In this document: one piece after another, positions 9,447 through 55,320 of the stretch | Position numbering within the stretch: position 1 is the stretch's first letter | How the letters are laid out: every line of letters begins with the position of its first letter | Source of the DNA: Utricularia gibba | Taxonomy: Eukaryota > Streptophyta > Magnoliopsida > Lamiales > Lentibulariaceae | Direction of reading: 5' to 3' | DNA: 64,000 bases | Assembly: GCA_002189035.1 (NCBI GenBank) | Contig: NEEC01000002.1 | Coordinates: forward strand, 806,001-870,000 | Notes under the pieces: generated by a model | Database searches by the model: none | What the model was told of the DNA's origin: nothing | What the model saw: only the letters and a program-made list of their open reading frames with translations | Translations under genes and position numbers: made by a program

Positions 9447-10547
9447 CTAGAAACCCGGCAGCTCCATCGGTGACGTCACCATGTGCAGCAGCTCGTTCCA
9501 GTAACTCTTGGTGTCATCTTGCTCCAGGAACGCCGTCGCGGAGGACATGGTATAGCAATCGGAACTGATACTAGGAACCCCAGCATCCTCCGCCGCGTCG
9601 GGAAAGTGGAACCTGCCGAGGTCCATCTCATACGTTGCGGCATGGTTATCGTATACACTTCCGGCGGACGGAGTGACGGTGGGAACCGCCGCTACGGCGC
9701 TAACGGGGGAGAAGTTGAGAGTGGAGGTGGGTGACTCAAGGGTGGTCTGCGCGCCGAAAAAGCAGCTGTTCGCTGCGGTGGCTTGCCACACTTTGAGAAC
9801 GTCCAAACACGGCGTGGCATTGGACATTTGAAACGGGAGGGCGGCGAGGGGAGCGGCGGAATGGTGACCTTCTGTAGAAACTGAAGATTGGAGAGGATTT
9901 TCGACTCACGGACGAGGCGAGCCTCGGCTTCCAGCCGCGCCGTTTCCCACTGTGCCATGTGACTGAGATTCGCGGCCTGCTTCGACTGCGCCCCTCCGCC
10001 GGAGCTACTCTTCGGCTTGTGCGTCACCGGGTCGATCCCCATTCTCGTTAGCCTCTTCTTCAGACGAGTGTTCCAGTAATTCTTGATCTCGTTATCCGTC
10101 CGTTTAGGTAAATGCGTCGCAATCGCCGACCACCTACACCAAAAAATGCATATTAATAACCGATCCATGAGCATTCACTTTCTACTCGTCATCATTACCA
10201 CCTGTTGCCGAGCAGGGCGTGGAGCCGGATGATCGCCTTCTCCTCATGGGCACTGAACTTTCCTCTCTTGATATCCGGCCGAAGGTAGTTCGTCCACCGC
10301 AGCCGGCAGCTTTTCCCGCACCGCTGAAGCCCTAGAGCCACCACACACAGGCAACCGCTATCTCATCAACTCCGATCAAACCCAAAGAAAGCAATTGAGG
10401 TGAGCGCAGGGTACCTGCTTTCGCCGGGAGGGAACGCCAGCTGCCATGGCCATGTTCCTCGATGTAGGCAAGAAGCTTCTGGTCCTCTTCCCTGGTCCAG
10501 GGACCCTTCTTCAGCTCTTCCTTAGCCGGGGAGTCCGGTTTCCCCAT
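9447..10547 (-). CDS. MIXTA-type R2R3-MYB (subgroup 9), frame broken by one missing base
   Basis: Three exons: 10547-10415, 10331-10202 and 10133-9447. R2 and R3 are complete ([39 protein letters not shown]). The subgroup 9 motif [20 protein letters not shown] follows directly, as in MYB16/MYB106, regulators of conical cells, trichomes and cuticle. After it the natural C-terminus ([31 protein letters not shown]) lies in the other frame. Total coding length is 950 nt; adding one base gives 317 codons. The switch must fall between 9905 and 9692, most simply at the TTTT run 9898-9901 (AAAA in the gene sense). Unrepaired, translation ends at 9692 with an unrelated Pro-rich tail. The start [12 protein letters not shown] differs from the usual MGRSPCC. 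Confidence 0.88.
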
Positions 10548-10644
10548 TGTCGCCGAATCCCTGATTCTCAACTTTGCCAAAAACAGGAGACGCCGCTCTA
10601 GCCACGGCCCGACCGCCACGGGGTGCCCGGAGAGTGCGTGTGGG

Positions 10645-10650
10645 TATATA
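10645..10650 (-). promoter_or_regulatory. TATA box of the MIXTA-type MYB gene
   Basis: TATATA lies within CTTTATATACCC on the minus strand, about 100 bp upstream of the MYB start codon, a normal plant spacing for a TATA box plus leader. Confidence 0.55.
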
Positions 10651-13600
10651 AAGTAACAAACGATCACGTTCATAAATAGGGTAAGTACACAAGGAGTAAG
10701 TGGTGTTGTAAAGCATTATAAATTCCGCTACCTAAGAAATTTATGAGGCCATGGTTTTGCACAAGGTGCCTTCTTCCCAAAATAATTAGCATCTAAAAAG
10801 AATCATATTTCAAAAATATGAAAATCGTAAAAAACCGCACAATCTAAGACTCTTTCTAAAACACTTTATACACATAGAAGCCATTCAGAATCAATTTTGT
10901 TAGCTAACCTTCCAAAAATCCAATGATTTAAATATTGATTTATTTTAAAATAAATTATAGGAATCAAGTTTCGTTCAATTCATTTAGAAAAGTATCCACC
11001 TTGTGCTACTCTCTTTCACATTATGACAAAAATTTTACGTACACGATGACCACTTTTCTTATACACTTAAAATACAGGGTGCACTTTGGTAATATACACA
11101 GTTAATTTAGCCGAACTAATGCAGTATCGAGTACGTGAATTTCGGGTGATCCAATTAATTCACAAAGTCCCCATTTTTAGTTATGAATAATAATAATAAC
11201 TAATTAAATTACACCAAGATGTAATAATACCCCCAAGTCCCGACCAGTTCTGTATGAGTTCAATTTTTTTTCCTTTTTGAAATTTGAAGTTTGTACGGAC
11301 AAAAGTGGTCCTTTCCCACAAGACTACAACGCTTTCCTAAGTGGGATGCCGAAGTATCCCTGTTCGCGCCAATTTTAATTTCTCCAGAAAGTTACATTTC
11401 TTTTATTTAATTTGTTACCGAGATAAATAAATATACGCATTTACTTTTTTTATTGTATGGGTCAAAGAATGAAACTAGGAATTACTACGTTCTCTGCTCT
11501 TGTCGCGCGGTCAATATTCCCATTTCTTTTTATTTTTACAGCCTCAGTAAAAAAAAAAAATAATAATTCGGGCATAATAAAGAGGCGTTCGTGTGTGCGG
11601 TCTCGTGTTGCATGCTTTTAGTTTCTTGCACAAGATACTCCCATCACATCAGCATGTAGGTTAAGGATTCTTCAAGTAGAAATAAAATAAAATAAAAATA
11701 ATAGGAAATTATTGGTGATTCTATAAATAGCATGGTATCTTGGATACCGCATGTGATATTTTCATTTCATGATACCCGGACACTTAATGATCCCTTTCCC
11801 TACCAAATCTGATCTCGTGCCCTTTGGATGTCACGTTCGGACCTACTCCGGCACAACCAACCTTATGTTATATGACGAAACTGTAATTTTCGTCGATACA
11901 TAATAGTTAAAAAAATGATTTTAATTTTATTACTATATATTTGATAAGCGATATTAGATGAAAAACATTAATATATCAAAATTTCAAATATATTAATTAA
12001 GATAATATTCATTAGAAATTTATTAGAATAAAATTATCTCATATTTGAATTTTTAAAATAATATAATCAATTATATAAAAGATTATAGGTTACTGATAAT
12101 TAATTGAACCTAAACTTAATTATATTGGAACCATGAACATTACGGTCCAACATGGGTCGGAACCATCGGTTACACGTTGTCGAATCTAATAGAAACCGTA
12201 CGGAAATTGATTTCTTGAAATCGAACAAGAACCGGAATCGACGTCTAGTGGGGAGTTTTGGAAATGCTTTCTAGGGTTCGTCGACTCGATACTAATACAT
12301 AATCACAAATATGTTGTGGGAAGCTGACAAGGAAGAAGGGTATTTACTCCGGTCAGAAGAGAACTGGGCCAAGGCTCGGTGCAGCCATAAATGTGAGCAA
12401 CTGTGGTACACAGAAAAGGGTGAACGGAAAAAAACACACTTCAATGCCCATGAATTCCGCCGGGTCCCCTCCCTGTGCTCTGTCTCAAACAGACATTTGT
12501 TTTTAACTCACTAATGAGACGATCATAAGGTCCTTTTGTGAATTCAATGTGTTCCCAAGATGGGGTCTTACAAACCATGCTGATACACTGAATACGCTTA
12601 CTCCGACTCATCTTTTTGGTGCAGAGAGGTGACGACATCCCTCCAGCAGCAAAGGCCAGCACACTACCGATCAGTCGGGGTTTCGCCAGGTCGACTGCCA
12701 GGTCTTCTGCACACCTACGGCTCTCACAGTCGGAGTACGATCGGGTAACGCCGCTGCGGGTGGATAGATGCTATCAGCAGGGAAACTCACCTCATCTTTT
12801 TGTTGTACTGCGATGACAACATGCAGCTGCTGTAAAGCACCTCCCTCTTCAACCCCTATCACCAAAACAACATATCACGTTAAGTCATTTCAACACATTC
12901 ATTTAGTCTAACCAGATGCTGAACTGATCACGGCTTTGATTTAGGCATTAGGGTTCCGACGAAAATGCGCGCGCACGTCTGATCAGAATTAATTAGCTGA
13001 AGGATTTCAAGGATTTCAGTGCAGGAACATTCCTGTAGGTCAGAGGATAGAGACGCAGTCGCTAATTAATGGCATCGCTGATTACCGTGAGGCAGTTAAA
13101 TACATCACGCCGTTAGGTATATAGTTGAAAAACGAAACAAAAAACCTTTTGCCCCAACACCCGTTGGGTGGACGAGCCCTAGTCGTTTCACGAACCCCGG
13201 TCGCCGGCGACTGTACTCCGATTACCGTAGGCGCGAAATAGGCCTCTCCGCCCTCATCTACCGCCATTTTACAAAATATTGAATGTGAAAGCAACACATT
13301 TACTGTTTCAACTTTCACCCGCATTATCATCGTATTATTTACTTTTTTTAATCAACGGAGTAAATTAAATAAATATTTTATTTTTTTTTAAAAAAATTGT
13401 CAGTGAACGTTCTCAATGCCGTAGAAAAAAGTAAAAAAAAAACCGGTATTCAATGTAGTAATAAATTGCCTCCCGAAAATTTACTCTACACTTTCAAAGT
13501 TTCAAGTTCTAACATCATACTATATAATTACGGGATTAAATTTTCATATAGTATTTTTAATAATCTAAAACCTATACAATTTTTTTCTGTCAAACACGTA

Positions 13601-14068
13601 CTTAGTAAATTTTAATTTATTTTATTTTTTATAAAAAATAATTTCCTGTATATCCTCGAGCATTCACCTTGAATGAAGGAAATCAAAATGGGGAAACCAT
13701 GCCTTGATATGGCATTTCATTAATGTATTTTGCTTGTAATTTAAAAATAATATTTTTTTAGTCCCGCCTTTTTCGGATTATTATTATCCAACTAATTTCC
13801 AATGCGCCTTTCGGGCGGTGACAGTGAATGTGTCCGCCGCGTCCTAAAATTAATAATACATAAAAAATGCATATATCTCAACGCGCTTTCTTTTTTTTTT
13901 TTTTTTTACAAGTGTGCATTTCTAAAAGAGATAAATGGAATAAAATCTTGCAATGCCTTATCCTATAAAATAAAAAGATAATATTTTTTATTCCAATTAT
14001 TTTTTTCAAGCTGCAAACTCGTTTACAATTTACAGGGAAGTGTCCTAACGAGGAAGATGACGAGTAAA

Positions 14069-14139
14069 ACGGCGTCGTTATTGTGGCGCCACTGGAGTCG
14101 GGTGGCAAATGGAACGGTGTCGTTTCTGTGACGCCACTG
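14069..14139. repeat. Two imperfect 26-bp direct repeats
   Basis: The copies at 14069-14094 and 14114-14139 match at 22 of 26 positions with a 45-bp period. Both begin ACGG(C/T)GTCGTT and end CGCCACTG. AACGGCGTCGTT-like sequence is a known over-represented element of plant promoters, so this may be a duplicated cis element. No gene follows closely. Confidence 0.75.
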
Positions 14140-17100
14140 ATTTTTTTGTGACGTCAGATCGCCTTGTCTTCTTGCCGGGATGGGCCATTGAGCTTTCATT
14201 ACCCGCTTCGCGGGGCTCAGGTTTTTAGGTGACAGGTAATTGCGCTGTCGCATTGTGGGGATTATCATGCAATACTTTATTTTCCGATGGTGGATCGATA
14301 AAGTAGCAGAAACCAGCCATGGAGATTAGGTTTCCAAAAATAAGCAAGACGGATGGGGTTTTAAAAGTGGTAGAAGACGAAAAGGGTGAATCTTTGGCTG
14401 GAAATCAGTGCAAAACAAAGCACTTTGAAGTGATTTGTAAAAGAAGAAGAAGAAGAAGGCAGTAGTAGGGGTTTGGTTATTAAGGCTGCATGGTTCTTCT
14501 CCACCTGCCCTTCTGGCGGCTCATTTAACAGTCAGCAACAAGAAAAAAATGCACCATACTCTGCACAGTCTGCGCCATCACAAATTGCATGCACCCACTC
14601 TGCTCTAGTCGCGTCCTTCATTTTCCACCACAAGGGAAATCGTCCCTTCGGGAGCCTGTCGAGACTGACTTTGTTTTACTTGCATGTTCAGAATCAGCAC
14701 AACGAAATTACAGTTCGAAACTATGGTGCCTGAAAGAAAAGCGAGGATCCAGAGAGACAAGTCCCATGAAGTGTCGTATCAATAGTGTTGGAAAGCTGCA
14801 GAACAAATTAAATGGCAGAAGGATTAAATGAGTGCAAAAGCGAGGGGACGACTGTGAAGGAAGGGCTAAACTCTTAGCCTTGTCTTGCTCTTAAGGATCA
14901 TCACCTCCCCTTTTGCTGCAACCCCCGTTTCCTGCATCCCCCTCTTTTGTTTCATTATCATGTCGCTGCACAGCTTTCTTGCTAACATTTGCTAACGGTT
15001 ATTTTAAAAAATACTCACTTTCAAATGACTATGTGATAAAATTATACATTATGTGTGTAATTTTTTATCTTTAGTATGTGAGAGATAAATACATGATGGA
15101 TACTTTTATAAACTAACCCTCGTTCCCGTGCCTTCTTCCCTCGTTTCTCACAATGACCCACTCCCTTTGGCAAATATTCCCTCCCTAGTGAACACATAAT
15201 GTTGTATATCTTCGAAATTTGCGTATTCAAAATTACGTTTATTTGATAGATAGCTTTCGAAAAGTGAAAAACCCTAGTAAACTTTTAAATTTTTTGAGTC
15301 ATTAGGTTATTAGTATTTGATAACAAAACTGTTTTTTTAAAAAAAACATAATTAAAAAGTATTCCGAATAGAACGTAAGAAGTATACCAATTTTTATTTA
15401 AATACAAATGTATTAATAATTATTGACATTGAACAATAATTAATTAATTAATTAATATATCCGAATAAACTTCCCGTACAATAATTTGGTTGGAGGGGTC
15501 AGAAAATGAAATAATTGTAAAATTATGAGGAGTGAATGCAAAGTTTCTATAATAGAGCCATTAAGCCTGAGGTCACCCGGGCTAACTTTCTATAAATGCA
15601 CTTCCCCCGCGGTGGGAGCCATCACGACACAATTACGTTATGATGATAAAAAAAGAAATTGTACTTCATCTCTTTATATTTACTAAACAGCCGTAGCTCT
15701 ATAATTGGCCATGCCTGCCTCCTCCCGTCTTCTATTAATATTATTTAATTTAAATTCTTTTTATTACTACCAGGACGTGTTGGCCCACGTGCGTCATTGG
15801 GCTAAACTAATAATATTGGGCCCTTCGTCGAACTGGCCCAAACTCAGACAAAGCGGTTGGTTACTCTTCTGGGCTGCAAGAGCAAGGCTGGGATCCACGT
15901 CATCAGATTCCCGACCAATCAACCCAATCCACGCACATGGCGAATTTAAGCGCTACGACCAGAGCAAGTTGGGCCTGACAGATTCGTTTTTTCGTTTCCG
16001 TAAATTTGACCAGTCTTATTTATTCATTTATTTTTAAAAAATATTTAATTTTCTGGAATTAAATATGGATACAGTTAATTTGTATAAAATAAAAAATTTT
16101 CAAAAAAATTGAATGTGTTTTTATAAAGTGATTGTTTAATTAAATACTATTTATTCAAAACGATTGAAAACAATAAATAAATTAGATAATTTAAATATCT
16201 TTATTATAAAAAAAGTATTCACTAATAAAATCGGAGTTTAATTTATTTTTTCGTCTATAAAAAAGTAATTTAATATTCAATTACACAATTTATTTCAATA
16301 AAATTAATCTAATTTTCAAAAGGCGTGATTATGGTGGAATTAAAGTTGGATTAGTAGGGCTCATACGGGTTATTAATTACACAACTACCAAATCACATAT
16401 TGTCAACCATTTCTCTTTTTTTAAAATTTTTCCTTCTTTTTGAATATTATGAAAAAATGGGTAATATTAAATATTTTTTTTTTACACAAGTTTCTGTTGA
16501 TGAATATTAAATATTAGTTTTTAAATAATTGTGCGTTGACTTTGGTATATTAAGAGTCCCCTCTTACGAGTGTATATAATTACAAAATGGACCATCTGGT
16601 TAACAATTTAGCGAAGTGGCCACATGCTCACTTGTCCCTTCTTTCTTCACTATTTACATTTCTACCCCAAAGTGAAACCGCAAATTATGTAATTTATTTT
16701 ATGCTTCTTACAAAAATACTGAATACCCCCTGTGCTAAAATGTAAATATAAACCTTTTGTTGTGGACATTATTTTAAATCGTCCAAAAATCGTAAACCGT
16801 TTACACAATAGTTTGCGAAGTTTAATTTATGATAGTAGTTCATTTTGTATAAAAAAAAACATTAATTTTTTGTATTATAAAAAACATCGAATCATAATTG
16901 AATTTATAGTTAATCATTGAATCACGATTTTTTTTTGAACAATTAAAATTTAATTTAATCGATTTAACAAGATGTTTTATAATATAGTATAGAATATTTA
17001 TATATCAACCTGAATAACCATATTACTTATTAATTTTTTGAGCATATGTATTACATATATAAATAGAGATATCTGTTAATAATATCTCTACCAGTGTATG

Positions 17101-17183
17101 TTTTTGTGTATCTTCGACTCTTATACCTCATACTTATATTTTCATATATTAAATAGATAATTTTTTGTATATATTACAATTTA

Positions 17184-17202
17184 ATATATATATATATATA
17201 TA
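17184..17202. repeat. (AT)n microsatellite
   Basis: An uninterrupted alternating AT run lies within AT-rich DNA. Nothing further can be said. Confidence 0.8.
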
Positions 17203-17613
17203 CATTATATTGAAACATAATAATACCCTAATATGAAACGACGTCTTAATGAAATATTCAACATAATTTGAGGAACACAAGTTCTTCATAGTAGTTGCAT
17301 TAGTGTGGGTAATTAGAGTGGATAGTTGCGGGATGGCCACACGAATTAGTACATTTTTTTCCATTGGCGCATTTAGACCAATTTAATACACTAGCTATGC
17401 CCTACTCTAGTGTTAGAAAAAAAACCCTATTTTAGGCAATCTATTTTACGTGCCAAGATAATATATTGTAACATTTTATTTTTTTTTTAATAATTTAAGA
17501 GGTGGAGTTATACTCTACTTGACCCCTCCCGCTTTTACCTTCTAAAATTGACAGTCTCCCGGCGGCGGTTATTCTATTTTACTGTTCACCGTACGCCACC
17601 GTAACCGGGACTC

Positions 17614-17620
17614 TATTTAA
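17614..17620 (+). promoter_or_regulatory. TATA-like box of the expansin gene
   Basis: TATTTAA (within CTCTATTTAAG) lies about 70 bp upstream of the expansin ATG in a CT-rich leader context. The position is plausible for a core promoter with a very short leader. Confidence 0.45.
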
Positions 17621-17686
17621 GTTTGCTTCACCCATCTCTTCCTCGGCCCCCCAGACAGACTCCACATTCTCCTCCACCGGAAAGCA

Positions 17687-18582
17687 ATGGCTGCTTCTGG
17701 GTTTCTGTTTTTCTCTCTTCTTCTTGCTTTTCTGTCGACTGGTGACGGCCAGGGTTGGAGCTGGATTCAGGCACACGCTACATTCTACGGTGGGAGTGAT
17801 GCTTCTGGAACAATGGGTATGGTTTGCATTTCGCAGAGCGGCTTTAAAAATGGATCGTTTTCAGTTCGTTTGATTGTTTGAACCAGGGGGAGCTTGTGGG
17901 TATGGGAATCTGTACAGCCAAGGGTACGGCACAGACACAGCGGCATTGAGTACGGCTCTGTTCAACAGCGGTTTGAGCTGCGGCTCCTGCTATGAAATCA
18001 GATGCGTTGCTTCGAGCCAGTGGTGCTTGTCTGGGTCGATCGTGGTCACCGCAACCAATTTTTGCCCGCCGAACAACGCGTTACCCAACAACAACGGCGG
18101 CTGGTGTAATCCCCCATTGGAGCACTTTGATCTTTCTCAGCCCGTTTTCCAACAGATCGCGCGGTACAGAGCTGGAATTGTCCCCGTCGCCTACAGAAGG
18201 TTGGATCTTGATTCGGTGAACGAAATCCCACACGGTGTTCATATATTGTATTCATGAAATCGGGGACGATCGCAGGGTACAGTGCCGGAGGCGGGGCGGA
18301 ATCAGGTTCACCATTAACGGCCACTCGTATTTCAATCTCGTGCTCATCACCAACGTCGGCGGCGCCGGCGACGTCCACGCGGTGGCAGTGAAAGGGTCGA
18401 GGACGGGATGGCAGCCGATGGGGAGGAACTGGGGCCAAAACTGGCAAAGCAACTCGTATCTTGACAGGCAGAGCTTGTCCTTCAAGGTAACCACCAGCGA
18501 CGGGAGGAGCGTGGTGGCCTACGACGTCGTTCCTGCCGGGTGGTCCTTTGGTCAGACATTTTCCGGCCCCGCCCAGTTCTAG
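17687..18582 (+). CDS. EXPA: Alpha-expansin
   Basis: Exons 17687-17816, 17887-18199 and 18276-18582 encode 249 residues, the normal EXPA length. A hydrophobic signal peptide (about 1-22) directs secretion to the wall. The N-terminal DPBB domain has the Cys pattern ([30 protein letters not shown]) and the HFDLSQPVF motif. The C-terminal carbohydrate-binding domain has [33 protein letters not shown] and the end [14 protein letters not shown]. Expansins loosen cellulose-matrix contacts without hydrolysis and drive acid growth. Sequence and neighbourhood resemble Arabidopsis EXPA1 (At1g69530), but the exact orthologue cannot be fixed by eye. All splice sites are GT-AG and the frame is intact. Confidence 0.96.
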
Positions 18583-22700: not shown

Positions 22701-23836
22701 TCAATTCAGCTTCAAGGGTCATGAAGACCAAACCGTTGTGGTGAGTTTTCGAAACTTAAGCATTCAACAGACCAACATCCGTGTGTGTGTCGCGGGTAGC
22801 ACAATCAACTAGATTTAAATTGTGTATTCACTGCAAATAACCTTCTACCTGAACTAGAGCTGTCTGTACCCTTGATGTGATATCTGTATCTTCACTGTCA
22901 CAAAACCAGTTTTATTTGTCTTGCGTTGTCTGGTCATTTCTGAGCTCTCATGTTCACTAAACAATCAAGCCTTCTTATGTCATTGTTAGTTGCCATCCAC
23001 TGGAATGCAAGATTTTAAAGTAAAGCATCAGAATGCTCCAATTCGAAGCCTGTCCTGAGGAGTTGTTGGATGAAGCAAAGTGAATAAAGGAAAAGACGGT
23101 CTTCCTGGTTAAATGGGACACAAAAGATGAGTAAAGATATCTCCTTATCTGTATCTTAAAGACAAAGAGCTCCTCCCATCCGATGAAGTTGGAAGAAAAC
23201 AGTAAAACAACATTTGTACTGGCAAAGGATAAATAAAACAATGACTAGAAAACCAGATGTGATTATTTGTATGCGGCTGCATAGAGAAACGAGCTTAGAA
23301 TTCTAAGGCCAGCCAGCTCTCAATTCGCCATAAAGCTAAGTTTGGGTTTTTAAGGAAAAATTCCCTTGCACTACCACTCCCACTTTTTCTTTTTCTGCCT
23401 GGCTGCTCATTACTTCCATCTCTTAGCATCCAAGCAACTCAAATCTACATCTTATCTCCATAGTGTTGAGTGACTTTGCTTCGTGTTGTGTATGGAAGCA
23501 GAGACATGGATAAGTAAAGGAAACCATTGATGCATTCTTCTGTAACTTGACTGATAGAGAGAGGGCAGAGGGTAAAAGAATATGGTTTAACTTATTTGCG
23601 GGGTCATCTTTAATCAACAAAACATGACTCTTCCTTTTTCCATCAGCAGCCTTGGATTTGCTGATTGCGGTACAGATCATGGACCCTCTTTGCTTTAAGA
23701 TCCTATAAATTGGATAGGATGATATCTACAGGTGGGACTTGCATTCAAAAAAACCAACTGCAGTCCTGCTATTGTAGCTAGCCTGTAGGTCTCTTCATCT
23801 GTAGTTATTTACAGGTTTTCACACAGGGCTTGTAGC
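22701..23836. other. RING 3' UTR and CLE promoter region
   Basis: It carries no recognisable coding sequence. A long stretch of moderate GC (22980-23700) probably includes the RING 3' UTR and the promoter and leader of the CLE gene. Confidence 0.4.
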
Positions 23837-25092: not shown

Positions 25093-26182
25093 TCATTTAT
25101 GAATGTATGAAGCAATAATAATCTTTTGGGATAATCTATCAGTCTTCCTTGCACTCTTTTGCAGGTTGTGCTTCAAGACCCCTTCAGTTCTTGTCACGAT
25201 ATTGTAAGGCATGTATGTGCCTAGAATCCTATCCCATGTCACAAAAAAAGGCTGGGAAAAGTTATACTTGCTTCCATAGAGCTGATGGTGAATATCATGA
25301 TATGCAGCATTGTTTCCAAAGAAAAGCTGGAAAAGGTTGCCTGGAACCCATAGCCCGCAGTGATCATCCACTGTTTTCAGAGTGGCAAAGGAAAAGAAGA
25401 AGATTGAAGACCGAGAAGACATGCCAGAAATAAGGAAAGCCAAAGCTCCACCGAATGTGTCAAGAAGCACACCCTCTAGAGGGTGGTTGTACAGAGCTCC
25501 AAAAGCATATGGAACAACAAGTCGATGGTGATGAGAATGAATATGCTTGTACAAAAACCTGTTATAGTGCATATAGCGGTGCACAAAATACTGCCATGTA
25601 TCGAGCGCCACCATTGCAACAATGAACTGCCTAGCAAGAACAACGACTGAAGCATCACGATTTTGTGTAGACCCACCGGTACCCCCAGTAACCTGATTAT
25701 GACAATAATTTAGTTCCACGTAATGAAAGATCACTTATTTCAGTTGCACTGGTACCCCAGCAAACGACTACTATAGACTCGGTTGTAGAAAGATTGAGAG
25801 AACAAAAGAACCAATTTTATAAAAAGGACGACTGGCATCTAACTACATCGCTTCATTTAAGAAAGGTGGGGAACAAGAGAAACGATTTTTTTTTCATCCA
25901 ACAACGACAGAAAGAAAGAAAAAAAGGCATTAATTACCGCAAATAGGATGGTGGCTACAGAAGCCTGAACAACCTGCTGGAATAATACCCCTATCACGAC
26001 TTTTTTCTTGGGCACCAAGTTCTTCTCTTCTTCATCCTTCTTCGAGTGAAGTCTGTAATCGTCGAAGGATCCAAGGAACACATAGATCCCAGAATAAACC
26101 CAGTACACAACAATGGGCACAAACGTTCCCAAAAACTCATCAGAGAATCCCACACCTCGAATAACCACCCCACTCTCTCCAT
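25093..26182 (-). CDS. SBH: Sphingoid base C4-hydroxylase (SBH), no in-frame AUG
   Basis: Exon 1 runs from about 26182 to 25938 and exon 2 from 25692 to 25093 (stop). The protein is a diiron fatty-acid-hydroxylase-superfamily enzyme of the ER that makes phytosphingosine (t18:0) from dihydrosphingosine. His boxes are HRYMH, HIHSHHHR and HDIHHQ, with DTWQYFVHRYMH and TYMPYNI as in AtSBH1/2 (At1g69640, At1g14290). The frame carrying FSDEFLGTFVPIVVYW has no ATG: a TAG lies upstream and the first codons are GTG/GTT. An ATG at 26182 (MERVGWLFEVW) is in the adjacent frame and would join after one added base between about 26182 and 26140. The C-terminus has 12 or so extra residues after the usual end. 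Confidence 0.9.
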
Positions 26183-31079: not shown

Positions 31080-31087
31080 TATATAAG
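31080..31087 (+). promoter_or_regulatory. TATA box of the PRE-type HLH gene
   Basis: TATATAAG sits about 150 bp upstream of the ATG at 31234, followed by a CT-rich leader. This is a good core promoter for a short HLH gene. Confidence 0.65.
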
Positions 31088-31233: not shown

Positions 31234-31778
31234 ATGTCTTCTCGAAGAGCCCGCTCCGACAACCCGCCACGTCACGGATAACTGAAGAAGAGATCGCCGA
31301 TCTTGTCGCCAGGCTGCAGTACGTCGTCCCGGAGATCCGCCATCGCCGGACCTCGGACAAGGTAAACCCGATACTTTCTACACCATGTAGTACATAAAAT
31401 GACGTCGTTTCTGGGTGGGACTCCATGTTTCCCCAGCTACTGACAGCCATGCCTTGGTCTACGCTGTCCGGACGCCTGGATTTCTGAAATTAAATCAACC
31501 ATATGTCATGTTTGCAGTATTTTCTCCAAATTAAAATCAAATTCGCATGCGTTTTTTAATTAAATAACTAGTGGGTGTTTTCCGGTGTGCTTTAACTCTA
31601 GTTGGGTGACGACGCGCAGGTTTCCGCTTCGAAGGTGCTGCAGGAGACTTGCAACTACATCAGAAGCTTGAACCGGGAGGTGGGGGATCTGAGCGATCGG
31701 CTGGCGCATCTCTTGGCGGCGACCGGCGTGAACAGCGACGACGCGGCCATCATCAGGAGCTTGCTGACGAGAGATTAG
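31234..31778 (+). CDS. PRE: PRE/KIDARI-type atypical HLH protein, frame broken near its start
   Basis: Exon 1 is 31234-31361 and exon 2 is 31620-31778. The HLH is nearly complete: [26 protein letters not shown], then [29 protein letters not shown] and the family-typical end [14 protein letters not shown] proteins lack the basic DNA-binding region and promote elongation downstream of gibberellin and brassinosteroid by titrating IBH1-type HLH partners. The expected start [11 protein letters not shown] (31234) is one frame off and hits TAA at 31279. One added base, most simply in the CCC at 31263-31265, yields MSSRRARS...ATSRITEEE and a normal 95-residue protein. The HLH frame has no in-frame ATG of its own. 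Confidence 0.9.
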
Positions 31779-34673: not shown

Positions 34674-34715
34674 ATGCAAGAAGAGGTGGAGTTTGACAAG
34701 TTAAGGGGGATATGA
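34674..34715 (+). promoter_or_regulatory. uORF overlapping the FLP start codon
   Basis: A 13-codon upstream frame (ATG at 34674, TGA at 34713-34715) ends in an ATGA overlap with the FLP ATG at 34712. If the leader is unspliced here, such a uORF would reduce FLP translation or force reinitiation. It is seen directly; an effect is inference. Confidence 0.6.
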
Positions 34716-37013
34716 AGAAGGAGATAGCTACTGGTAGTGAACTGTCACAGCAGAAAAAAAGGCATAGACATATTGTGTCCTGGTCTTCAGAGGTAAGGGA
34801 GCTTTATTTGATTCTCAGTTGACATCTGGTTCCTAATAACTTCACTGAAAACATTTCGTTTTCAAATCAGGAGGATGAAATCCTGAGAGAGCAAATCAGG
34901 CTACATGGGACTGAAAAGTGAAAATTCTTGACTCTCTTGTTGGTTTCTTTGATTTGATGATGTGGTTGATCAATCTTTTTTGACAGTTGGGTCGTGATTG
35001 CATCGAAGTTTAGGGATAAATCAACTAGGCAATGCCGCAGAAGGTTGGTGAAAGTAAAATGGATGATGGCTACATTCAACTATCTCTCCCTGTTTCCATG
35101 GAGTTTTTCTTACACTTGTGTTTTTACTGTCTCAATAAAGGTGGTTCACTTACTTGAACTCTGATTTCAAGAGAGGAGGATGGTCACCAGAGGAAGACAT
35201 GCTGTTGTGTGAGGTTAAAACAGTTTTTATCCTAGCACTATCTTTTCTTCTCCACGGTGAAAAACCTGCTCTACTGGATTTGAGTACATAACAATGCGGG
35301 TATGATCTTAAACGCATTTCAGGCACAGAAGATGTTTGGAAACAGATGGACTGAGATTGCCAAGGTTGTCTCAGGCAGGTAATTCCATAGTAGCAAAGCA
35401 TATATCTGCAAAGGTGTTGCAAAACGGCAATTCTAGTTCTAATACACCCTGCTTTTCAGAACTGATAATGCTGTGAAGAATCGATTTACAACTCTCTGCA
35501 AGAAGAGGGCAAAGCATGAAGAAGTAGTAAGAAGAAGCAATGGATCTGAGACTACTCCACCTCGTAAAAGGATGAGGTTGTCTGAATTGACAAATTCTTT
35601 TCTATTATGATGTTTTTCACTTACTCATGTTTCATAAAATCGGTCATGTAGGACCTACATAACGAATACAACCTTAAACCAAGTAGAAGAAGCATCTGGT
35701 GATAATGGTGCTGCGAGTGATCTACATACATTAGTTGCTGAAAGTGCCTGTAGGAATACCATCAAACTACCTCCCCAGCAACAATGGGAGAAGAAATCAC
35801 TTGATGCTGGTAAGTTTTGTAGACTCGCATTGAGGAAGAAAGCCATAGCTTTGTCATTTTTGTTGCTTTATGCCTGAGATTCACATCAGGGAGTGGAAAC
35901 AGTATGACTAACTGTATAATCACTTAAAATTTCATGCTGAAATGTGATCCATTTCCACTCATGCAGCAGAAAACAATGCTGCTCAGCGAACATTTCTTTC
36001 AAGGGATGATCCAAGGATACGTACCTTGATGCAGCAAGCAGAATTACTCAGTTCACTTGCAATCAAGGTTAACTTGGAACAGACATATGAAAGCCTTGAC
36101 AATGCATCGATGGTAGTTGGAAAGCATAGTTATCTGAAAACAGTGTTGCATTTGAATGAAATAAAAAAGAATCAGATGATGCAATGTGTTTTTTGTTCTG
36201 AGCGACTTACTGTGCAGGCTCTTCAAGATTTTCTTGAACAAAACAAGCCATGTAATCAGCCATCATTTGGAAATCCAGATACTGGTTGTCAACTTGAGAA
36301 ATTCAATGATACTGTGGAGGGCTTATGGAGCTGTTCCAATGATGGGAGCAAAGGAGATTATTATGATTCTTCACTAGCTAGCTCTGAGTACAGCAGTGGA
36401 TCAAGCCTGCCTTCGGTTGATAAAACAGAAGTGTGTCAAGGAGAATTCTCTGTCCCACAAGAAGAAAATAGCCACGAATCGAAAGCAGATCAATTAGTTA
36501 ATAACCATTTTGTGGCTGGTGGAAAGCTTAACCGCCGCAAACCAAGCTGGATCGAAGGTAAACAATCTCCAATGATTTATGTCTGAGATGATATAAACAG
36601 CTCAGTCACAGGCTCTGAATTCTTCCACTTCGATGCAGTGGGAAACATATTAGCTTGTAGTGATGTAAAATATACTGACAGAGCAGTGACGTTTGACTGC
36701 CCCAGCAGGGAGTTTGATTCCCCTCTTCATGTGGCTCCATTATTCAGATCTTTAGCTGCTGCAATCCCCAGTCCCAAGTTTTCAGAAAGCGTAAGGAGTG
36801 CCATTTTGGTTACTTGTCATCCTTCGCAATACACTCCATGACATCTCGTTGTACATGTTGATTTCTCGACTACTTGAATAAGATCATTTCTCCTCCCTGC
36901 AGGAAAAGAACTTCCTGATGAAGACACTAGGAATAGAGCCAACTTCGCCACGCCCAGTATCGAATCCTTCACAACCTCCAGCCTGCAAGAGGTCCCTCCT
37001 CCATTGCCTATGA
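34712..37013 (+). CDS. FLP: FOUR LIPS/MYB88-type atypical R2R3-MYB
   Basis: Eleven exons: 34712-34792, 34871-34917, 34987-35043, 35141-35213, 35323-35378, 35460-35576, 35652-35809, 35967-36112, 36218-36557, 36639-36790 and 36903-37013; 445 residues. R2/R3 repeats carry FLP-specific blocks: RHIVSWSSEEDEILREQ, IASKFRDKSTRQCRRRW, NSDFKRGGWSPEEDMLLCEA and GNRWTEIAKVVSGRTDNAVK. C-terminal blocks TLMQQAELLSSLA, SSEYSSGSS, PLFRSLAAAIPSP and KTLGIEP match as well. FLP and MYB88 end the guard-mother-cell division by repressing cell-cycle genes. Intron 8 (36113-36217, 105 nt) has no stop and is a multiple of three, so its retention would insert 35 residues. Exon 8 begins at a CAGCAG tandem acceptor. 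Confidence 0.95.
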
Positions 37014-45698: not shown

Positions 45699-46522
45699 AT
45701 GGAAGGGGAAGAAGAACAAGTACACTACACAGCAAGAAAAGTTTCAATGAAACGGGAAGGGATTCCTTTCTCTCCTGGGCATGCTGATTCTCTCCGTTTC
45801 AATCTCCAGGGCAGATCCCAAGCTGCTCAAATGGAGGATGATGAACAGGAACTCCTTTTCCCCAGCCACCAGGAGAAGAAACGGCGGTTAAGAGCGGAGC
45901 AAGTTCAGTTTCTTGAGAAAAGCTTTGAGATTGAGAATAGGCTTGAGCCAGAGAGAAAAGCTCTGCTGGCTAAAGAAGCTGGTTTGCAGGAGAGACAAGT
46001 TGCTGTTTGGTTCCAAAACAGGCGAGCGAGGTACAGAACCAAGGTTCTAGAGAAGGATTACTATGCTCTGAAAGCGAGGTTCCAGACACTGAAAGCAGAC
46101 TATGATGCACTTGTGAAAGAGAATGAAGAGATGAGAAATGAGGTACAGTACATGTTTCTGGTGTTCTCCGTTGATCCTCTGCTTTTTTGTTCTTGTTTGG
46201 CTTCAGATTTGTAGCGTATCAACCTTATGTTCTTTTTTCATCAACAACACTTGTTTGCTCTGTGAAGATCATTCTTTTATCAGAGAAGATGAATCAAAAA
46301 GGAGAGAAGCTTAAGCAGGAAGAGTCCAATGAAGTGAAGCTACTGTTAGAGCCGCTAAATGGCGACCCTTTGGATTTTGATCTGTCACAAACTTTAGCCC
46401 AAGATGAAAAGAACAAGAGCACCCCAAAACTCGAGTTTGAATGGGATGAATATCTGCAACCAAATTGTTGCAATCTGGGATTCCCAGTTCGTAATCAGGG
46501 GACATGGTTCTGGAAGTACTGA
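45699..46522 (+). CDS. HD-Zip class I transcription factor
   Basis: Exons 45699-46142 and 46268-46522 encode 232 residues. The homeodomain (about 58-117) starts [20 protein letters not shown], continues [20 protein letters not shown] and ends [16 protein letters not shown]. It is followed at once by a leucine zipper ([25 protein letters not shown]). HD-Zip I proteins bind CAATNATTG as dimers and act in ABA/drought and growth responses. The usual helix-3 end [12 protein letters not shown] is changed to RARYRTK here, two substitutions in a nearly invariant segment. The C-terminal half is acidic with Trp residues (FEWDEYL, GTWFW), a probable activation tail. Closest subgroup by eye is ATHB5/6/7-like, not decided. 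Confidence 0.92.
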
Positions 46523-47840
46523 GTTTTAAAGAGAACAATAAGTGAAGATGAGTAACTGTAACTGGGTTTCATCAACCTGGGACCATCACCACGGGGAAGC
46601 AAGAAAGAAGAAGCAGAAGATTATGTTGATATATCATTGTTCTTTCCTTGTGAAGTGAAAAGGATTCACCCCTCCATGGGAATGGGATTGGGAGGGACTT
46701 GACAAGACAGGATAGGATGCCAACAAAAGTCAAGCTTTTAAAAGGCTTCAGTGCCACTCTTTTCAGTAGTACAACTGACTTTTGTGCACCATTCCTCACA
46801 AATTGTAAAATTCCCCCTGAGTGAGTTTTTCTTTTTTTTTTTCAGTGACACGAAATATGAAAATTTATTATAAAAAAGGCAGTACCTTACAGTAACGTTT
46901 GCAGTCTTCCGGGCCCATAATGGGCCGTTCGATAGCAAAAGCTCGAAACGTCGCTGTGAAGTGAAAAAGATGGGCCTGCCACTTGGCCCACCCTCTGCAT
47001 TTGCTGTTTCCGTGCCGATCAGAAACAGAGATCAAACTCTTGACGGCAACCGCGACTCGTTTGCCCGATCGCGATGGGTTTTTCCAGACTACGGACGGCT
47101 TTGTCCATGCTTTCCACAATCAAATGACTCATGATCCGCCCAGATACCGATAGCCTAGTAATATTGGTATCCAGTTGAAGGTTGGATTAGGGATAGAATC
47201 TTTGGGGCATTTCGTCGAACACCTTGTATTCGTGGACTGGAGAGTGAAATGACGAATGAAGAAACAACGGATAGTTTGGCTGGAGCTTCGTTGCCTGCCA
47301 CCTGGCTTCATTAGCTGTCCCGCTAATTCCGAATATGTGGGCTTATTCGGCCCAATGGGCTTCGGGTTTTAAACGGGTTGCTATCAGAAGTTTTGTTCAT
47401 AGACGACGACCGGGCTCATATACAATTGATGAAAAAAAAATTATATTATAATTATTTTACAAATCATGCATATATCAAATAATATGTGTTTATAAAGTAG
47501 TAAATAAATTTTTTAAATACAGATGATAATTACAAATTATTTAAAAAATAACGCGTTTAAAATAAATGAAAAGTAAAGAATATCTTATTTTTCATTTATA
47601 AATATAAACAAAAAATAAAATGAAAAACAAGTGAAAATTACACGTATTCTGTGAATTATTTGTTTTTGTTTTAATTAAATTAAATGTTTTAACTTAATCA
47701 GCGTGTAATTAAGTGTAATCCCGTTGTGAGTAGATGTATCTTTTTTATGGGAAAAAAAACTATTTTTTTTATGTAACTTGAATTAGGTAACTGTACTTGG
47801 GGTGTGGGCAGGCGTCGTCTCTCGAATCACACGCATTTCC
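46523..47840. other. Spacer between HD-Zip and AMP deaminase genes
   Basis: 46,523-46,830 is the HD-Zip 3' flank. 46,900-47,380 has GGCCCA/TGGGCC site II motifs (46,913-46,928; 46,974-46,990; 47,350-47,362). 47,420-47,780 is AT-rich. The AMP deaminase promoter lies at the right. No other gene is seen. Confidence 0.4.
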
Positions 47841-50800
47841 ATGGCTTCGCCATCTCTGCCATCCTCATCGGTTTCGCCTCTTGACCTTGTGGTGGCGGCG
47901 TTTTTCGGCGCTTCTGTAATGGCCATCACCGCATTCTTCTTTCACAAGCGGAGCGTCGATCAGGCACTTGATCGCCTCTTGGACCTTAGCAACCGCCTCT
48001 CTGATGACGAAGAAGTTGAACCTTTTGATCGCCATGGGAGTGAAGAGATACGGAGGGCGGAAAACTCCTTTTACGATCGTGATGACGATGGGAATGGCGG
48101 TGAGGAGAGCGATTTACACTTTGCTGAGTGTAGTGCGAGAGTCACGGAGGAAGAATTTGACGGTGTGGAGGCTATTTCGAAAATAATGCCGAAGTCATTG
48201 GGTGAAGGTGGCCTAATGCCTTCTAGGTTACCTCTTTTGACTGATCAGAAAAATGGTAAGCGTTTGGTTCCACAACGTTATCAGGCAAAATAAAATTTTT
48301 AGTAGTTTTAGTTTACAAATGTTGATATGCGCAGGAAAAAATCAACATGTTGGCACGAATGTGAGTCTTGAAGCATCAAGGGATGCTGTATTTGAAAGAA
48401 AAAAGTATCCTGATGTAAGTGGAACTGAACTTGTAGACAGATACTGTGATCAAGGGTTGCTGAATCGATATTTCCTCCTTGTGAAGTCCCCGGTTCAGGT
48501 TTATTCATTAAGCTTCCGGTAAATATATTTTTAAAAAATTTAAGCCTGCAGGAAAACAAGCTAGTGCATCAAAATGGGGGCGTTTGGAGCACACTGTCAC
48601 AAAAAAGGATTCTAGAATTTGAAATGAAGTCAAGTGAACATCTTGCCAACAGAAACTTCGGTACATCTTCAGATTCTATATCTGATAGTGTTTTAAATAT
48701 CCAGTTCTCAAAAAAATTAGCCCAACTTTTGTTGTTAACTAAATAGGTAACTTTTGCGTATGTGCATATCTTGTACCTGGTCGTATTTTTGAATCACTAG
48801 ATTCTGCTTCTGGTGTTTTGCAATACATGTTCAGAGTCAGTCAGACATGAAGATCAAGAAGTGCTGAAAATGATACGGGGTTGCTTGGATTTGAGGGAGA
48901 AATATGTGTTCAGGGAAAATGTTGTTCCATGGACTAAAAATGTCAAAGATTCTTGCCGGAAGAATGCTAACAATGATCCATTCCACTTCATCCCTGTTAA
49001 GCCCTCTTCAGTATGTTGGAAAACAGAAGATAGATATAATTTATTCAGATTTTTTTTTCTTGTGCTTTTCCTATAGAAATATTGTTAAGCTGCTTGATTT
49101 ATGCCATCCCTCTCATATGCCGAGCAGCATATCTTCAGAATGGAAGATGGAGTCATACATGTCTATGCAGGCAACAATGGTAAGTAAAAACTTGAATGCG
49201 TTCTTATACTTTGAATGGGAAGTCTCATTATTAACATTTGCGTTTTTTGGATTTAGATACGGAAGAGCTATTCCCTGTTCCTAGTTCTACAGCATTTTTC
49301 ACTGACATGCATCATCTTCTGAAAGTAATGTCCCATGGAACTGTTCGAACAACATGCCACCAGCGGTTGCATTTAGTTGAGGAAGTAATGATGTATACTC
49401 TGAACCTTTCACATTCATCCACAAATGGTACTCCTCTGTTCATTATTAACAAACTATGTCTTCTCCAGAAATTCCGACTTCATTTGTTGCTGAATGCTGA
49501 TCTTGAGTTGCTGGCCCAGAAGAGTGCACCTCATCGTGACTTCTACAACATAAGAAAAGTTGACACTCATGTTCATCATTCTGCATGCATGAACCAAAAG
49601 CATCTTCTGAAATTTATCAAGTTAAAGTTAAGAAATGAACCAAATGAGGTATTCTTGTCAATCAGGACTTTTCAATTTATTGCTCTCTTTTGAAATCCTT
49701 CTAAGGTGTAGCTCATCTTCTCGCCTAATGCTGTAATGTGATGCTATTTTAAATTTTCACAGGTTGTCATCTATCGTGATGGGCAATATCTTACCTTGAA
49801 AGAAGTCTTTGACAGCTTAGACTTGACAGGGTTTGTTTTAGTACAACTCATCTAATTTATTTTTAACAGTTAGATCTCTGATGTTTAATCAGCATGCATA
49901 ATGCAGGTATGATCTTAATGTCGACTTGTTGGATGTACATGCTGACAAGAGTACCTTCCACAGATTTGATAAATTTAATCTCAAATACAATCCTTGCGGC
50001 CAGAGTAGACTTAGAGAAATTTTTCTGAAGCAGGATAACCTCATTCAAGGTTTCTCCTGTTTTTAGACTTGGAAAAAACAAAAGTTCAGGCATTGCTTGA
50101 TTGCTAAATAACTTAATTTTTATCATGCCCATGATCCAGGGTAGTAGTCAGTTGACAAGTTACTCTTTCATGACAATTGATTTTTTTTTTTTTTACATTT
50201 TTTATTTATAAAAGTTACATTGACTGTTATAAATTTTGTGGGCATTTGTTCCTAGAGTTTCTATTTTTCATTTATCACATGATCAATGTTAAGAAATTTG
50301 GCAAGGCACATGACTTGCTATTTGAGGCATCTTTTTTACATCATTCACCATAGCTCTCGTTGTGAAAAAACAAACACCAGTTTAAATGATCTCATGGAAC
50401 TTCTTTAGCAACCTTTGGCCACAGATAATATAGATGAAATGCCATAACTTTTTTCATTCTCAGGACGTTTCCTTGCTGAAGTGACAAAGCAGGTTTTATC
50501 TGATCTAGAAGCAAGTAAATACCAGGTATCGTTCATCTGGCTTTTGTTCTCTTATATATGGATTGTTCTAGTTAATTTAGAAGTGGTTGTTTGCCCGATC
50601 AAACTTAGTGAAAGACATTGCTTTGTGGTGCATTCCTCGATCCCTATCTGGAAAAATAACAAGTTTGAGTAAAGGGAAACTCAGTGTAGTCTGATAATTG
50701 CACTTTTCAGATGGCCGAGTACCGAATTTCTATTTATGGGAGAAAACAGAGTGAATGGGATCAGCTAGCTAGCTGGTTTGTGAACAACCAAATTTATAGT

Positions 50801-52605
50801 CCTAATGCTGTGTGGTTGATTCAGGTAAGTATTTTGGTGGCCACGCAATTATCATGCCTAGCCTTCATAACTGTCCTACTAACTGTAACATTTAATTGAA
50901 AGTTAACTGCGGTTAGATTAACTTGATTTATGTGATTATAGTGTGACTCTTAACTTTTTCAGTTGCCAAGATTATACAATTTGTACAAGAGGATGGGAAC
51001 AGTCACATCCTTCCAGAACATGCTAGACAACATCTTTATTCCACTTTTTGAAGTTACTGTTGACCCGAATTCTCACCCACAGTTGCACCTTTTTTTACTG
51101 CAGGTTAAGACATTATTGCAACCTCATTTTTTACTTATTGAATTACGTATCCAAAGGTGAAGGTGTTGTTTGCTAAATGTTTGTGATACAGGTTGTGGGT
51201 TTTGACATGGTAGATGATGAAAGTAAGCCAGAGCGCCGTCCAACAAAGCACATGCCAACTCCTCCACAGTGGACAAATGAATTTAATCCTGCATTTTCTT
51301 ACTATGCTTATTACTGCTATGCGAATCTATACACTCTTAACAAGGTGGAGTGCCCATAACTCTAGTCAGCCACCCCCCACTCCCCGCAAGCCACAATCCT
51401 CTTATGAAATGCTTACTTTTTAATAAAAAATTGTTTACACTACGTGAAATAATTTTTTTTTCATATTGAATCCTCTCTTATCATTCCACCTCATATTCTT
51501 CATCCTTGGCAGCTCCGCGAAACTAAAGGATTGCCAGCCATCAGCTTTCGTCCCCACTGTGGTGAGGTTGTATTCTGAGTCTAGCCTGCATGCTGCAAGA
51601 TGCCTTGAATTTTTCTCTAAAACTTTTTAACACCCCCTACTGCAGGCTGGAGATATTGATCATTTAGCAGCAGGGTTCCTTCTTTGTCATAACATTTCAC
51701 ATGGAATAAATCTGCGGAAATCTCCACTCTTGCAATACCTATATTATCTAGCGCAGGTTTGTTGATAAATGTTACATGCATTGATTGGATGTTCATCAAT
51801 ATGCTTTTTTCCTTTCAGATGAATCGTAAAGAATGTATATAATGCAATCTACCATGAGAATGGGTTTTGCTGCTTGTAATATTTGTTCATGTCTAATAAC
51901 AACTTCACAAATTTGGTTTGAACGTTCAGGTTGGCTTGGCAATGTCACCACTAAGCAACAATTCGCTTTTCTTGGATTATAACCGCAACCCCTTTCTAAT
52001 GTTCTTCCAACGTGGCCTAAATGTCTCACTCTCAACTGATGATCCACTGCAAATCCATTTAACCAAAGAACCTCTCGTTGAAGAATACAGTGTGGCAGCA
52101 AAGGTACGGTTTGTTTCTCACCTTTTTCGATCTCCCTAGGCATATTTCTCCAAGATACTTCTTCAACCAGGTCTGGAAGCTTAGCTCTTGTGACCTTTGC
52201 GAGATAGCAAGAAATTCTGTCTACCAGTCTGGTTTTCCCCATGCAGCAAAGGTTAGACCTTCAAACCGATTTTGCTGCATAAGCCGGTTAACGTTTTCCT
52301 GCTCAGTATTTCGTAGTTACAAATGGTTCAATAACTGCATCTGTAGTTGCACTGGCTTGGAGATGGATATTATAAGATGGGACCTGACGGGAATGATATA
52401 CACAAGTCTAATGTACCAAATATACGAATTTCTTTCAGACATGAGGCAAGCATATATCATCCTCGTTATTGCGGTTCCTTTCTCTTTGCATCAATGCTTA
52501 CTTTTAACTGTTTCTTTATGCTTTTTGTCTTTGCAGACTTGGAGAGCTGAGATGCGATTTCTACATGGTGGAGAAGTCATTCTTCCACTAGAGATCGATC
52601 ACTAA
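47841..52605 (+). CDS. AMPD: AMP deaminase (EMBRYONIC FACTOR 1)
   Basis: Nineteen exons, from 47841-48255 to 52537-52605, encode about 830 residues (Arabidopsis FAC1 839). Exons 7-19 are certain; the exon 3 end (48660) is less so. A single membrane anchor near the N-terminus ([20 protein letters not shown]) precedes an acidic linker and the deaminase domain. Zn-binding [14 protein letters not shown], substrate residues in [20 protein letters not shown] and the catalytic block [20 protein letters not shown] are all present. The enzyme converts AMP to IMP plus ammonia and sets the adenylate balance; its loss is embryo-lethal in Arabidopsis. Intron 18 (52446-52536) has a GC donor (GAG|GCAAGC) with an AG acceptor, the only non-GT donor seen. 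The C-terminus [20 protein letters not shown] is diverged. Confidence 0.95.
52446..52536 (+). other. GC-AG intron in the AMP deaminase gene
   Basis: The homology junction (ISFRHE to TWRAEM) requires donor GAG|GCAAGC and acceptor TTTGCAG. GC-AG introns are about 1% of plant introns and are spliced by the major spliceosome. No in-frame GT alternative fits the family alignment. Confidence 0.75.
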
Positions 52606-53042
52606 CACTAGCATCAAAACTCTGCTTCCAAATTTCCTATTAACACCTGGTTTTTAATTTGGGAACTTCATTCTGGGAATTCGCATTCAAAATTAGCTTG
52701 TCTTCATAATTGGCAAGGTCCAGGGGCTTGGTATGTCTTTAAAGACATATGTGCTGTATCTTATGCAAATACGTTGCTGGAAATCATTGCCTTCTTTTAC
52801 TACAGAAGATCAGTTTAGTCGGAATAAAACCCAAGTTCATGTCTGCTGCTTTGAGAACAAAATCTTACTATTTTCCACGGGGTGATTTATCTTTTTTCGA
52901 GTTGTCACTTCCAGAATGTATTCTTGTCTGTGAAAAGGTACTGAAGTTGGGTACTATAAGGGCAGCTATCAACCCTCAATGATGAAGAGATAAGCATCCG
53001 CAGGAACAGAGAGCGAGGGAAGCAAGAAACTTGAGGGGGGAA
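52606..53042. other. Short spacer between AMP deaminase and thioredoxin
   Basis: Less than 440 bp holds the AMPD 3' UTR and the thioredoxin promoter and leader, an unusually compact tandem arrangement. No other feature is seen. Confidence 0.4.
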
Positions 53043-53606
53043 ATGGGAGCCAATGCCTCTTCTTGTGGTTACAGGAGGAACCTGATAACAAAACCTACTG
53101 TGAAACCAGCCAAAAAAGGTCAAGTCATTCAATTTCATTCTTCATCAAAGTGGAAGAACCATTTTGATGCCTCCAAGCAGACTTCAAAACTGGTACCCAA
53201 GTCTGTCTATCATCTCCACTGCATTCTTAACAGATATGATTTTTCGGATGATTTTTTCTCTCGTCACAGATTGTTATCTACTTCACTGCCACTTGGTGCG
53301 GGCCGTGTCAGCTCATTCAGCCTGCCTTTACAGCCTTCGCAGAAAGGTATTCTGATGTGGATTTCATCAAGATCGATGTCGATGAGCTGATGGTAAGCTG
53401 TTTATTTCCCATAATTCATTCAATGGTTGCTCTGTGTTATTATTGTTCTGTGAAAGAAAAAACCCATTTGACAGAACGTAGCAGAGGAGTTTGCAGTGCA
53501 GACCATGCCCACATTCATACTGATGAAGAAAGGCAAGCAAGTTGACAAAGTTGTTGGCGCTAAAGAGGAAGACCTCCAGAGGAAGATAGAGAAACACAGG
53601 CGCTGA
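53043..53606 (+). CDS. TRXh: Thioredoxin h with N-terminal extension
   Basis: Exons 53043-53192, 53270-53392 and 53475-53606 encode 134 residues. A roughly 25-residue N-extension begins MGANASSC, a myristoylation-type Gly2 with a nearby Cys8, so membrane attachment is possible (as known for TRX h2/h9 relatives). The thioredoxin fold follows: [39 protein letters not shown] with the redox [15 protein letters not shown], the cis-Pro block [20 protein letters not shown] and a Lys-rich end. It reduces disulphides using NADPH-thioredoxin reductase in the cytosol. Intron positions match typical TRX h genes. The frame is intact. It converges with the DnaJ gene, the stops lying 387 bp apart. Confidence 0.93.
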
Positions 53607-53992
53607 AAATCACTTCTTGGAACCTGGAGTTCTTGTTCCAAGATCCCTATCACCCTTGTAGAACACCAAAGCACCTCTCATGGTGCATTCATATCCTATT
53701 ACTAGAATGAAGTACTTATTTAATAGTTACCATCTGCAAACCTCGAGGTTTCGAGCGTAAAAACACGGATAAAAAATATGAATGCTTTCATTCACCATTC
53801 TGATATAAGACAATCTATCACAACTCATCTTATGTTGCATCAGTAGTGGAGCTTAACATTTCCAGCTATTGAAAAAAAAAACAGACAGGATGGCACCTTC
53901 TCCTACCTATGCGCCACGAGCTTTCTGGTTTAAACAAGCTTATATACACTTGGTCTAGAGTTCAGAAGGCAAACTTCAATGATCTTATTTCA
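53607..53992. other. Convergent spacer, thioredoxin and DnaJ 3' ends
   Basis: This short region must carry both 3' UTRs. Nothing else was recognised. Confidence 0.4.
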
Positions 53993-55320
53993 TCAATGGC
54001 TCGTCCTGCCCAAGACCCGTCTCAGTTCTGATTTCTGTTCTGCAGAAAGTCTTGAAGGGAACTTGACATCGAATTTGATCCTCAAATTCCCATGTTTACC
54101 AGGCTCTTTTGATATTGGCATTCCTTCATTTTCAATCACCATTTCCTGGCCAGGTTTGATGGTATCTGATAGAGAAACAGCAATATCTCTTCCATCCAAT
54201 GAGGTAATGTGCAAATCCTTTCCTGTAAGAGCATCTAGCAGAGAAATCTTCTGATGAATCATCAGATCATTACCATTCCTTCGAAATACCGGATGCGGCT
54301 TCTCATCGATGACAAAGATGAGGTCTCCTGGAGCGACACTTGGTTCATGGTTACCCTTCTCAGGAAACGTGATTCTGGTACCCTTCTTCCAACCAGGCTT
54401 TATGTTTATGGATAAAACCTCTTCCACCATCATTGGCTTACTACAGAGCATGAGTAGCAGAACGTTCAAGTAGTAGATATCAGTAGAAATCATATGAACA
54501 AATCAAATGTCAATGTTTTTAATCTTCATTAGGCTTGAGCAAGAAAACCATCTATAGGAATTTGCTAAGTTTTTGTTCCTAACTGCAGATGCAACCCCCC
54601 CTGGTAAAGTGAAAAGCTGCACAGGGCTATGAAAGGATGAATGCACATGAGGAGTTCAGAAGATAATGATGCTGAAGGTTTGAAAAACTAGGTAGACGAC
54701 TCCCCAAATCCGATGTCTCATTTCCCAGACAACCAAATGAGGGATCAAGAAGTAGTCAAAACATTTGGAGAATTGATATCACATATGAATGCTGAAATCC
54801 ACTACTCTCAGTTTTACCTACCCTGCATCATCAAGAACGATTCTTGAAATCTTCATCTTTCTCTTTGATCCCTTGTACAGCTCCTCCAAGGTACACGTCA
54901 ATTTGGTCTCCACGTCCGCCGCCTTATCTAACTTCCGGCCGCCCCCGCCATCCGCATTTTGCTCTTCCCGGACATGAAACCCACCAAAAAATTCCTCGAA
55001 AATATCCTCAGCGTTTCTGGGATTGTACTTGAACCCCCTCCCAGACACCACATCCCTTCCATTGGAACCCGGGGCGGAAACATACCAGACCCGGACTTCA
55101 AACCTTCCTCCCCGAACAAATCATAGATCTGCCTCCTCTGTGGATCACTCAACACATCATACGCCTCGCTAATCTGCTTGAACTTAGCCTCCGCTTCCGC
55201 AGGATTCATCGCATTCTTATCCGGGTGCCATTTCATCGCCAATCTCTTATACGATTTCTTCAGATCCTCCTCAGTGGAGGACCTCGAGACCTTCAATACG
55301 TTGTAATAATCGACACCCAT
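53993..55320 (-). CDS. DnaJ (HSP40) class B co-chaperone, one missing base
   Basis: Exons 55320-54822 and 54440-53993. The J domain is complete ([45 protein letters not shown]), with the HPD motif that stimulates Hsp70 ATPase. A Gly-rich linker, the [18 protein letters not shown] segment and the C-terminal substrate-binding domain ([54 protein letters not shown]) follow. The J domain and the rest are in different frames: one added base, most simply at the GGGG at 55071-55074 (CCCC in the gene sense), turns FPPRVPM into the family-typical FPPPGSN and gives 316 codons. Without it translation continues in a wrong frame to 54928. The class B architecture has no zinc finger. Confidence 0.92.

Follow-up and report, generated by a model that had tools for sequence, protein, structure and literature searches.

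Do single-base frame shifts in four genes of one plant genomic region record the loss of those genes, or are they faults of the sequence in which they are read? The stretch of DNA analysed, here called the window, comprises 64,000 nucleotides of Utricularia gibba (C451:806001-870000) and lies on a 6.8-Mb contig of an assembly of 100,091,633 bases in 516 contigs. A first-pass annotation had ascribed the shifts to deletion-type sequencing error. With a high degree of confidence, we regard all four as examples of homopolymer-deletion consensus errors that occur throughout a long-read assembly; the four genes are probably intact in the living plant.

Sign of the frame shifts in the window

The affected genes encode an R2R3-MYB protein, a sphingoid base hydroxylase (SBH), an atypical HLH protein of the paclobutrazol-resistance type (PRE) and a DnaJ protein. 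Their positions, and those of the shifts, are as follows.

9447..10547, minus strand: R2R3-MYB gene (MIXTA-type), three coding exons, intact apart from the shift (three-frame translation)
9835..9851, minus strand: stretch containing the MYB exon 3 shift, C3/C3/C4 in the gene sense, one missing base (DNA alignment to homeologs)
25093..26182, minus strand: SBH gene, FA_hydroxylase domain intact in the second exon (translation)
26168..26171, minus strand: SBH shift site, C4 on the plus strand and G4 in the gene sense, just past the ATG at 26182
31234..31778, plus strand: PRE gene, two exons (translation)
31256..31257, plus strand: PRE exon 1 shift site, a CC run
53993..55320, minus strand: DnaJ gene (type II HSP40), two exons (translation)
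55071..55074, minus strand: DnaJ exon 1 shift site, C4 in the gene sense, a single 1-nt gap relative to the homeolog

Three-frame translation bore out the first-pass statement that each gene has one frame change with the sign of one missing base (four of four), and there was no extra-base case among them. On the sense strand the frame moved from 0 to 2 in MYB exon 3, from 2 to 1 in the first SBH coding exon, from 0 to 2 in PRE exon 1 and from 1 to 0 in DnaJ exon 1. Each gene carried this one lesion, with normal splice sites and the rest of the sequence intact. The signs of a true pseudogene, namely indels of mixed sign, accumulated stops and relaxed constraint, were not found in these four genes. 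An intron was rejected as the cause of the shifts, as it was for the split GRAS matches described below; there was no space for an intron, and the matches overlapped.

Homeologous copies and placement of the shifts

The same genome was searched with the MYB, PRE and DnaJ proteins and, for SBH, with the FA_hydroxylase family; the PF04116 match that represents the second SBH exon (C451:831216-831626) was free of stops. All four genes were present, in conserved order, in a homeologous block at C2:5.008-5.070 Mb, and partial blocks were located at C3:4.05-4.09 Mb, C414:0.22-0.28 Mb and C412:0.21-0.24 Mb. The C2 copies of MYB, PRE and DnaJ had one open frame through the shift sites, and that of SBH read unbroken from its ATG. 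Up to five homeologous blocks can thus be listed (C451:806-870 kb, C2:5008-5070 kb, C3:4051-4091 kb, C414:221-281 kb and C412:208-244 kb), to which MYB, SBH and PRE are partly or wholly common and of which only that on C2 shares DnaJ; this set is consistent with repeated whole-genome duplication.

Alignment to these copies moved two of the sites proposed in the first pass. The MYB shift had been assigned to the A4 run at 9898-9901, which was ruled out because two homeologs (C2:5008k and C3:4051k) aligned in frame 0 for approximately 45 nt beyond the run. In the DNA alignment to both, the frame broke within the C-rich stretch at 9835-9851. The MYB homeologs on C2, C3, C414 and C412 were open from residue ~85 to 316. 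For PRE, the CCC at 31263-31265 had been suggested; the CC at 31256-31257 agreed better with the C2 homeolog and was taken as the site because the frame-restored RSRQPA was identical to that of the homeolog (C2:5050661-5050840). The alignment of these two sequences had a net difference of -4 nt, which equals one codon plus one base, and PRE homeologs with exon 1 matches were present on C2, C3, C414 and C412.

For SBH, the missing base was upheld, and its site, previously left undetermined, could be placed at the C4 of 26168-26171, where alignment to the homeolog at C2:5.04 Mb (L002) had its gap; L002 reads MEKMGMVIGGMRFSDEFLGT unbroken. This shift falls within poorly conserved first codons. 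The proposed DnaJ site at 55071-55074 was supported, since the sole 1-nt gap relative to the 88%-identical C2 homeolog (C2:5070082-5070585, exon open over query residues 1-170) was located there. In that homeolog a G separates the two CC pairs, and therefore the base lost from DnaJ did not necessarily come from a pure C run. Homeolog identity was high on either side of the DnaJ and MYB shifts. All four sites had a G/C context, with pinpointed runs of four only in SBH (G4) and DnaJ (C4), the PRE site being a CC.

Genome-wide survey of frame shifts

A frameshift-aware protein-to-DNA alignment of our own was applied to 76 loci, comprising 46 GRAS loci (including those retrieved for GRAS matches outside the best 30) and 30 UDPGT loci. 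The aligned coding sequence came to 98.6 kb, and a shift was counted when the alignment was well supported to either side of it. Matches to the p450 and CCT families were set aside because they were too rich in introns or incomplete. Since GRAS genes are largely intronless, a frame-split GRAS match with no space for an intron was taken as a frameshift. Over the 76 loci the automatic filter gave 34 missing-base and 7 extra-base shifts (binomial p = 2.5e-5), and curation, which involves judgement, gave about 36 and 2, respectively.

Five of the seven extra-base calls were rejected as true insertions: either the reference was itself short of a base, or direct DNA alignment revealed deletions close by. 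Two had been called against L029, which is one base short, one against L028, which seems to have a loss at about the same C-terminal position, and two in L071 reflected nearby deletions that were visible in the direct comparison. The other two were in L081 (C244:2104747-2106819), a decayed GRAS copy. It combines missing-base and extra-base shifts with a stop and a large gap and, in contrast to the error class, is probably a true pseudogene.

Run context was scored within 10 nt of the missing-base sites and compared with random coding positions. G/C runs of at least 3 were present at 89% of sites (34% of the background), runs of at least 4 at 50% (9%) and runs of at least 5 at 25% (1.7%). The enrichment for G/C runs had p about 4e-14, and A/T runs were not enriched at the surveyed missing-base sites. 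Many GRAS matches were split between frames; among the 12 for which the sign was computed, 11 showed a missing base, and the twelfth (L034) proved on inspection to be two bases short. In HSP70 genes, four in-exon splits and one further split in a duplicate contig all had the missing-base sign. Shifts of this type were thus found in GRAS, UDPGT and HSP70 genes over many Mb-scale contigs, in conserved and essential genes alike.

The survey also altered the standing of the window. The first-pass annotation had implied that four shifts in 64 kb were out of the ordinary; at 36 shifts per 98.6 kb, 4.4-7.3 would be expected for 12-20 kb of coding sequence, a length estimated from the list of open reading frames and not from a gene annotation. 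With about 4-7 expected, four is an average number and not a cluster. No in-exon frame break was found in the AGO7, mitochondrial carrier, expansin, receptor-like kinase, PQQ enzyme and AMP deaminase genes of the window. An uncharacterised gene at 35948-36841 has a diverged homeolog at C2:5055497-5056397, and its apparent stop at 36584-36586 sits within a GT/AG-bounded, intron-like stretch that is very short.

Recurrent breaks and twice-assembled loci

Three DELLA genes (L035, L036 and L037) and the PAT1-like GRAS gene L034 had a common break at conserved Gly-Pro-Pro codons, within runs of 4-6 C or G; in L034 two bases were missing, 17 nt apart. Other GRAS genes had no interruption at these codons. 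A recoding site was considered for this recurrent break and rejected, since the genes have merely C/G-rich Gly-Pro-Pro codons in common and differ in run length and exact position. The break reflects a recurring error-prone context and not a conserved site.

One locus was assembled twice, on a 38-kb contig (C316, L020) and on C412 (L021). Over 4.1 kb the two copies differed by 1 substitution and 10 gaps. All ten gaps were in L020, most of them one base long, and one broke a frame that L021 keeps open; the losses fell in both coding and non-coding DNA. In natural divergence substitutions outnumber indels, and because of this the differences between L020 and L021 were attributed to assembly error. 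Three other pairs (L029/L071, L029/L080 and L026/L083) also differed mostly by gaps in one copy, in a pattern less clean than that of L020/L021. In the clearest twice-assembled pairs, one partner lies on the 38-kb contig or at a contig end, and coverage may be lower in such places than inside the 6.8-Mb contig. In L029, when compared to L071 and L080, a 6-base stretch seemed to be locally inverted (AACACC versus GGTGTT), which is perhaps a haplotype difference.

An HSP70 gene (C304:2235549-2237462) and its duplicate on a small contig (C241:16598-18511) carried an identical in-exon missing-base shift. The two copies may have shared reads, the error may be systematic, or the lesion may be real. 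This is a counterpoint to the error reading, since it allows that the error is systematic or that some shifts are genuine. We consider it extremely unlikely that a subset of the shared shifts, for example those at the DELLA motif or in the HSP70 copy on two contigs, is genuine and either recoded or tolerated by the plant.

Alternative explanations

Real gene loss would make the four genes recent pseudogenes, tolerated because of copies left by whole-genome duplication. Homeologs do exist for all four, such that the loss of one copy would be tolerable, but each gene is disrupted at one point only and otherwise intact, with normal splice sites, the same type of lesion is carried by HSP70 genes and several DELLA genes, and both the sign and the G/C-run context are typical of sequencing error; gene loss is therefore highly improbable. 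A mixed origin, in which most of the four are errors and one or two are genuine natural frameshifts, is also very unlikely, although any genome contains some real pseudogenes, as L081 with its shifts of both signs seems to illustrate, and the poorly conserved codons affected in SBH would suit such an origin. The missing-base rate of the survey fully explains four shifts in the window, and none of the four is distinguishable from the error class.

The DELLA shifts, which affect one motif in several paralogs, at first resembled a conserved recoding site, and programmed ribosomal frameshifting or correction at the transcript level could in principle restore the frame in the plant. The shared feature is confined to C/G-rich codons, however, with differing run lengths and positions, a two-base deficit in L034 and no interruption at the motif in other GRAS genes, and the twice-assembled locus has the same kind of loss in coding and non-coding DNA. 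The conserved slippery site at a fixed position that characterises programmed -1 or +1 frameshifting was not seen for the window genes: the homeologs of MYB, PRE and DnaJ had no interruption, and that of SBH has its ATG in frame. We give restoration of the frame by the plant next to no credence.

Consensus error in the assembly, as proposed in the first pass, accounts for the common sign, the G/C-run context, the recurrence across the assembly and the presence of twice-assembled loci that differ almost only by missing bases. Taken together, the shifts are almost certainly errors, and each individual site in the window is a probable one. The consensus would have dropped a base within short G/C runs or where one such run borders another. 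We infer that the assembly would have been built from PacBio continuous long reads, polished by a Quiver-type method and left uncorrected by short reads. A Utricularia gibba PacBio assembly was made with HGAP/Quiver and has a contig N50 of 3.4 Mb (PMC5793159); that report states 581 contigs, compared with 516 in the assembly analysed here. G homopolymers are a known weak point of Quiver and result in false frameshifts (PMC4853030), and gene-fragmenting errors in long-read assemblies arise mainly from homopolymer deletions (PMC12007338).

The pattern of shifts is a property of the sequence file and, taken as biology, an artefact. In the GRAS/UDPGT sample there was about one supported shift per 2.7 kb of coding sequence. 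At the single-base level, gene models, pseudogene counts and claims of gene loss from this assembly are untrustworthy without read support, and wherever a gene copy seems to be lost, those of DELLA, HSP70, SBH and MYB included, a G/C-run error should be the first assumption. Loss of DELLA is not inferable from this assembly.

Comparison with known assembly errors

The closest likeness is to PacBio continuous-long-read assemblies polished with Quiver only, in which, as here, short homopolymers lose one base, genes that are otherwise intact are frameshifted, and deletions outnumber insertions. Here, on what is presumed to be the same platform, runs of 2-4 bases are affected as well, and only when they consist of G or C. 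Uncorrected long-read bacterial assemblies (Kastor, PMC12007338) likewise have gene-fragmenting indels, most of which are spurious deletions in homopolymers 2-8 bases long and result in frameshifted pseudogenes; those data are from nanopore sequencing and the deletions are commonest at A/T runs, whereas G/C runs dominate here. The false frameshifts at G9 in PacBio/Quiver assemblies of Xanthomonas oryzae (PMC4853030) share the involvement of G homopolymers and of a PacBio consensus, but those runs were much longer than the runs in this study, and the shifts mostly disappeared with better chemistry and parameters.
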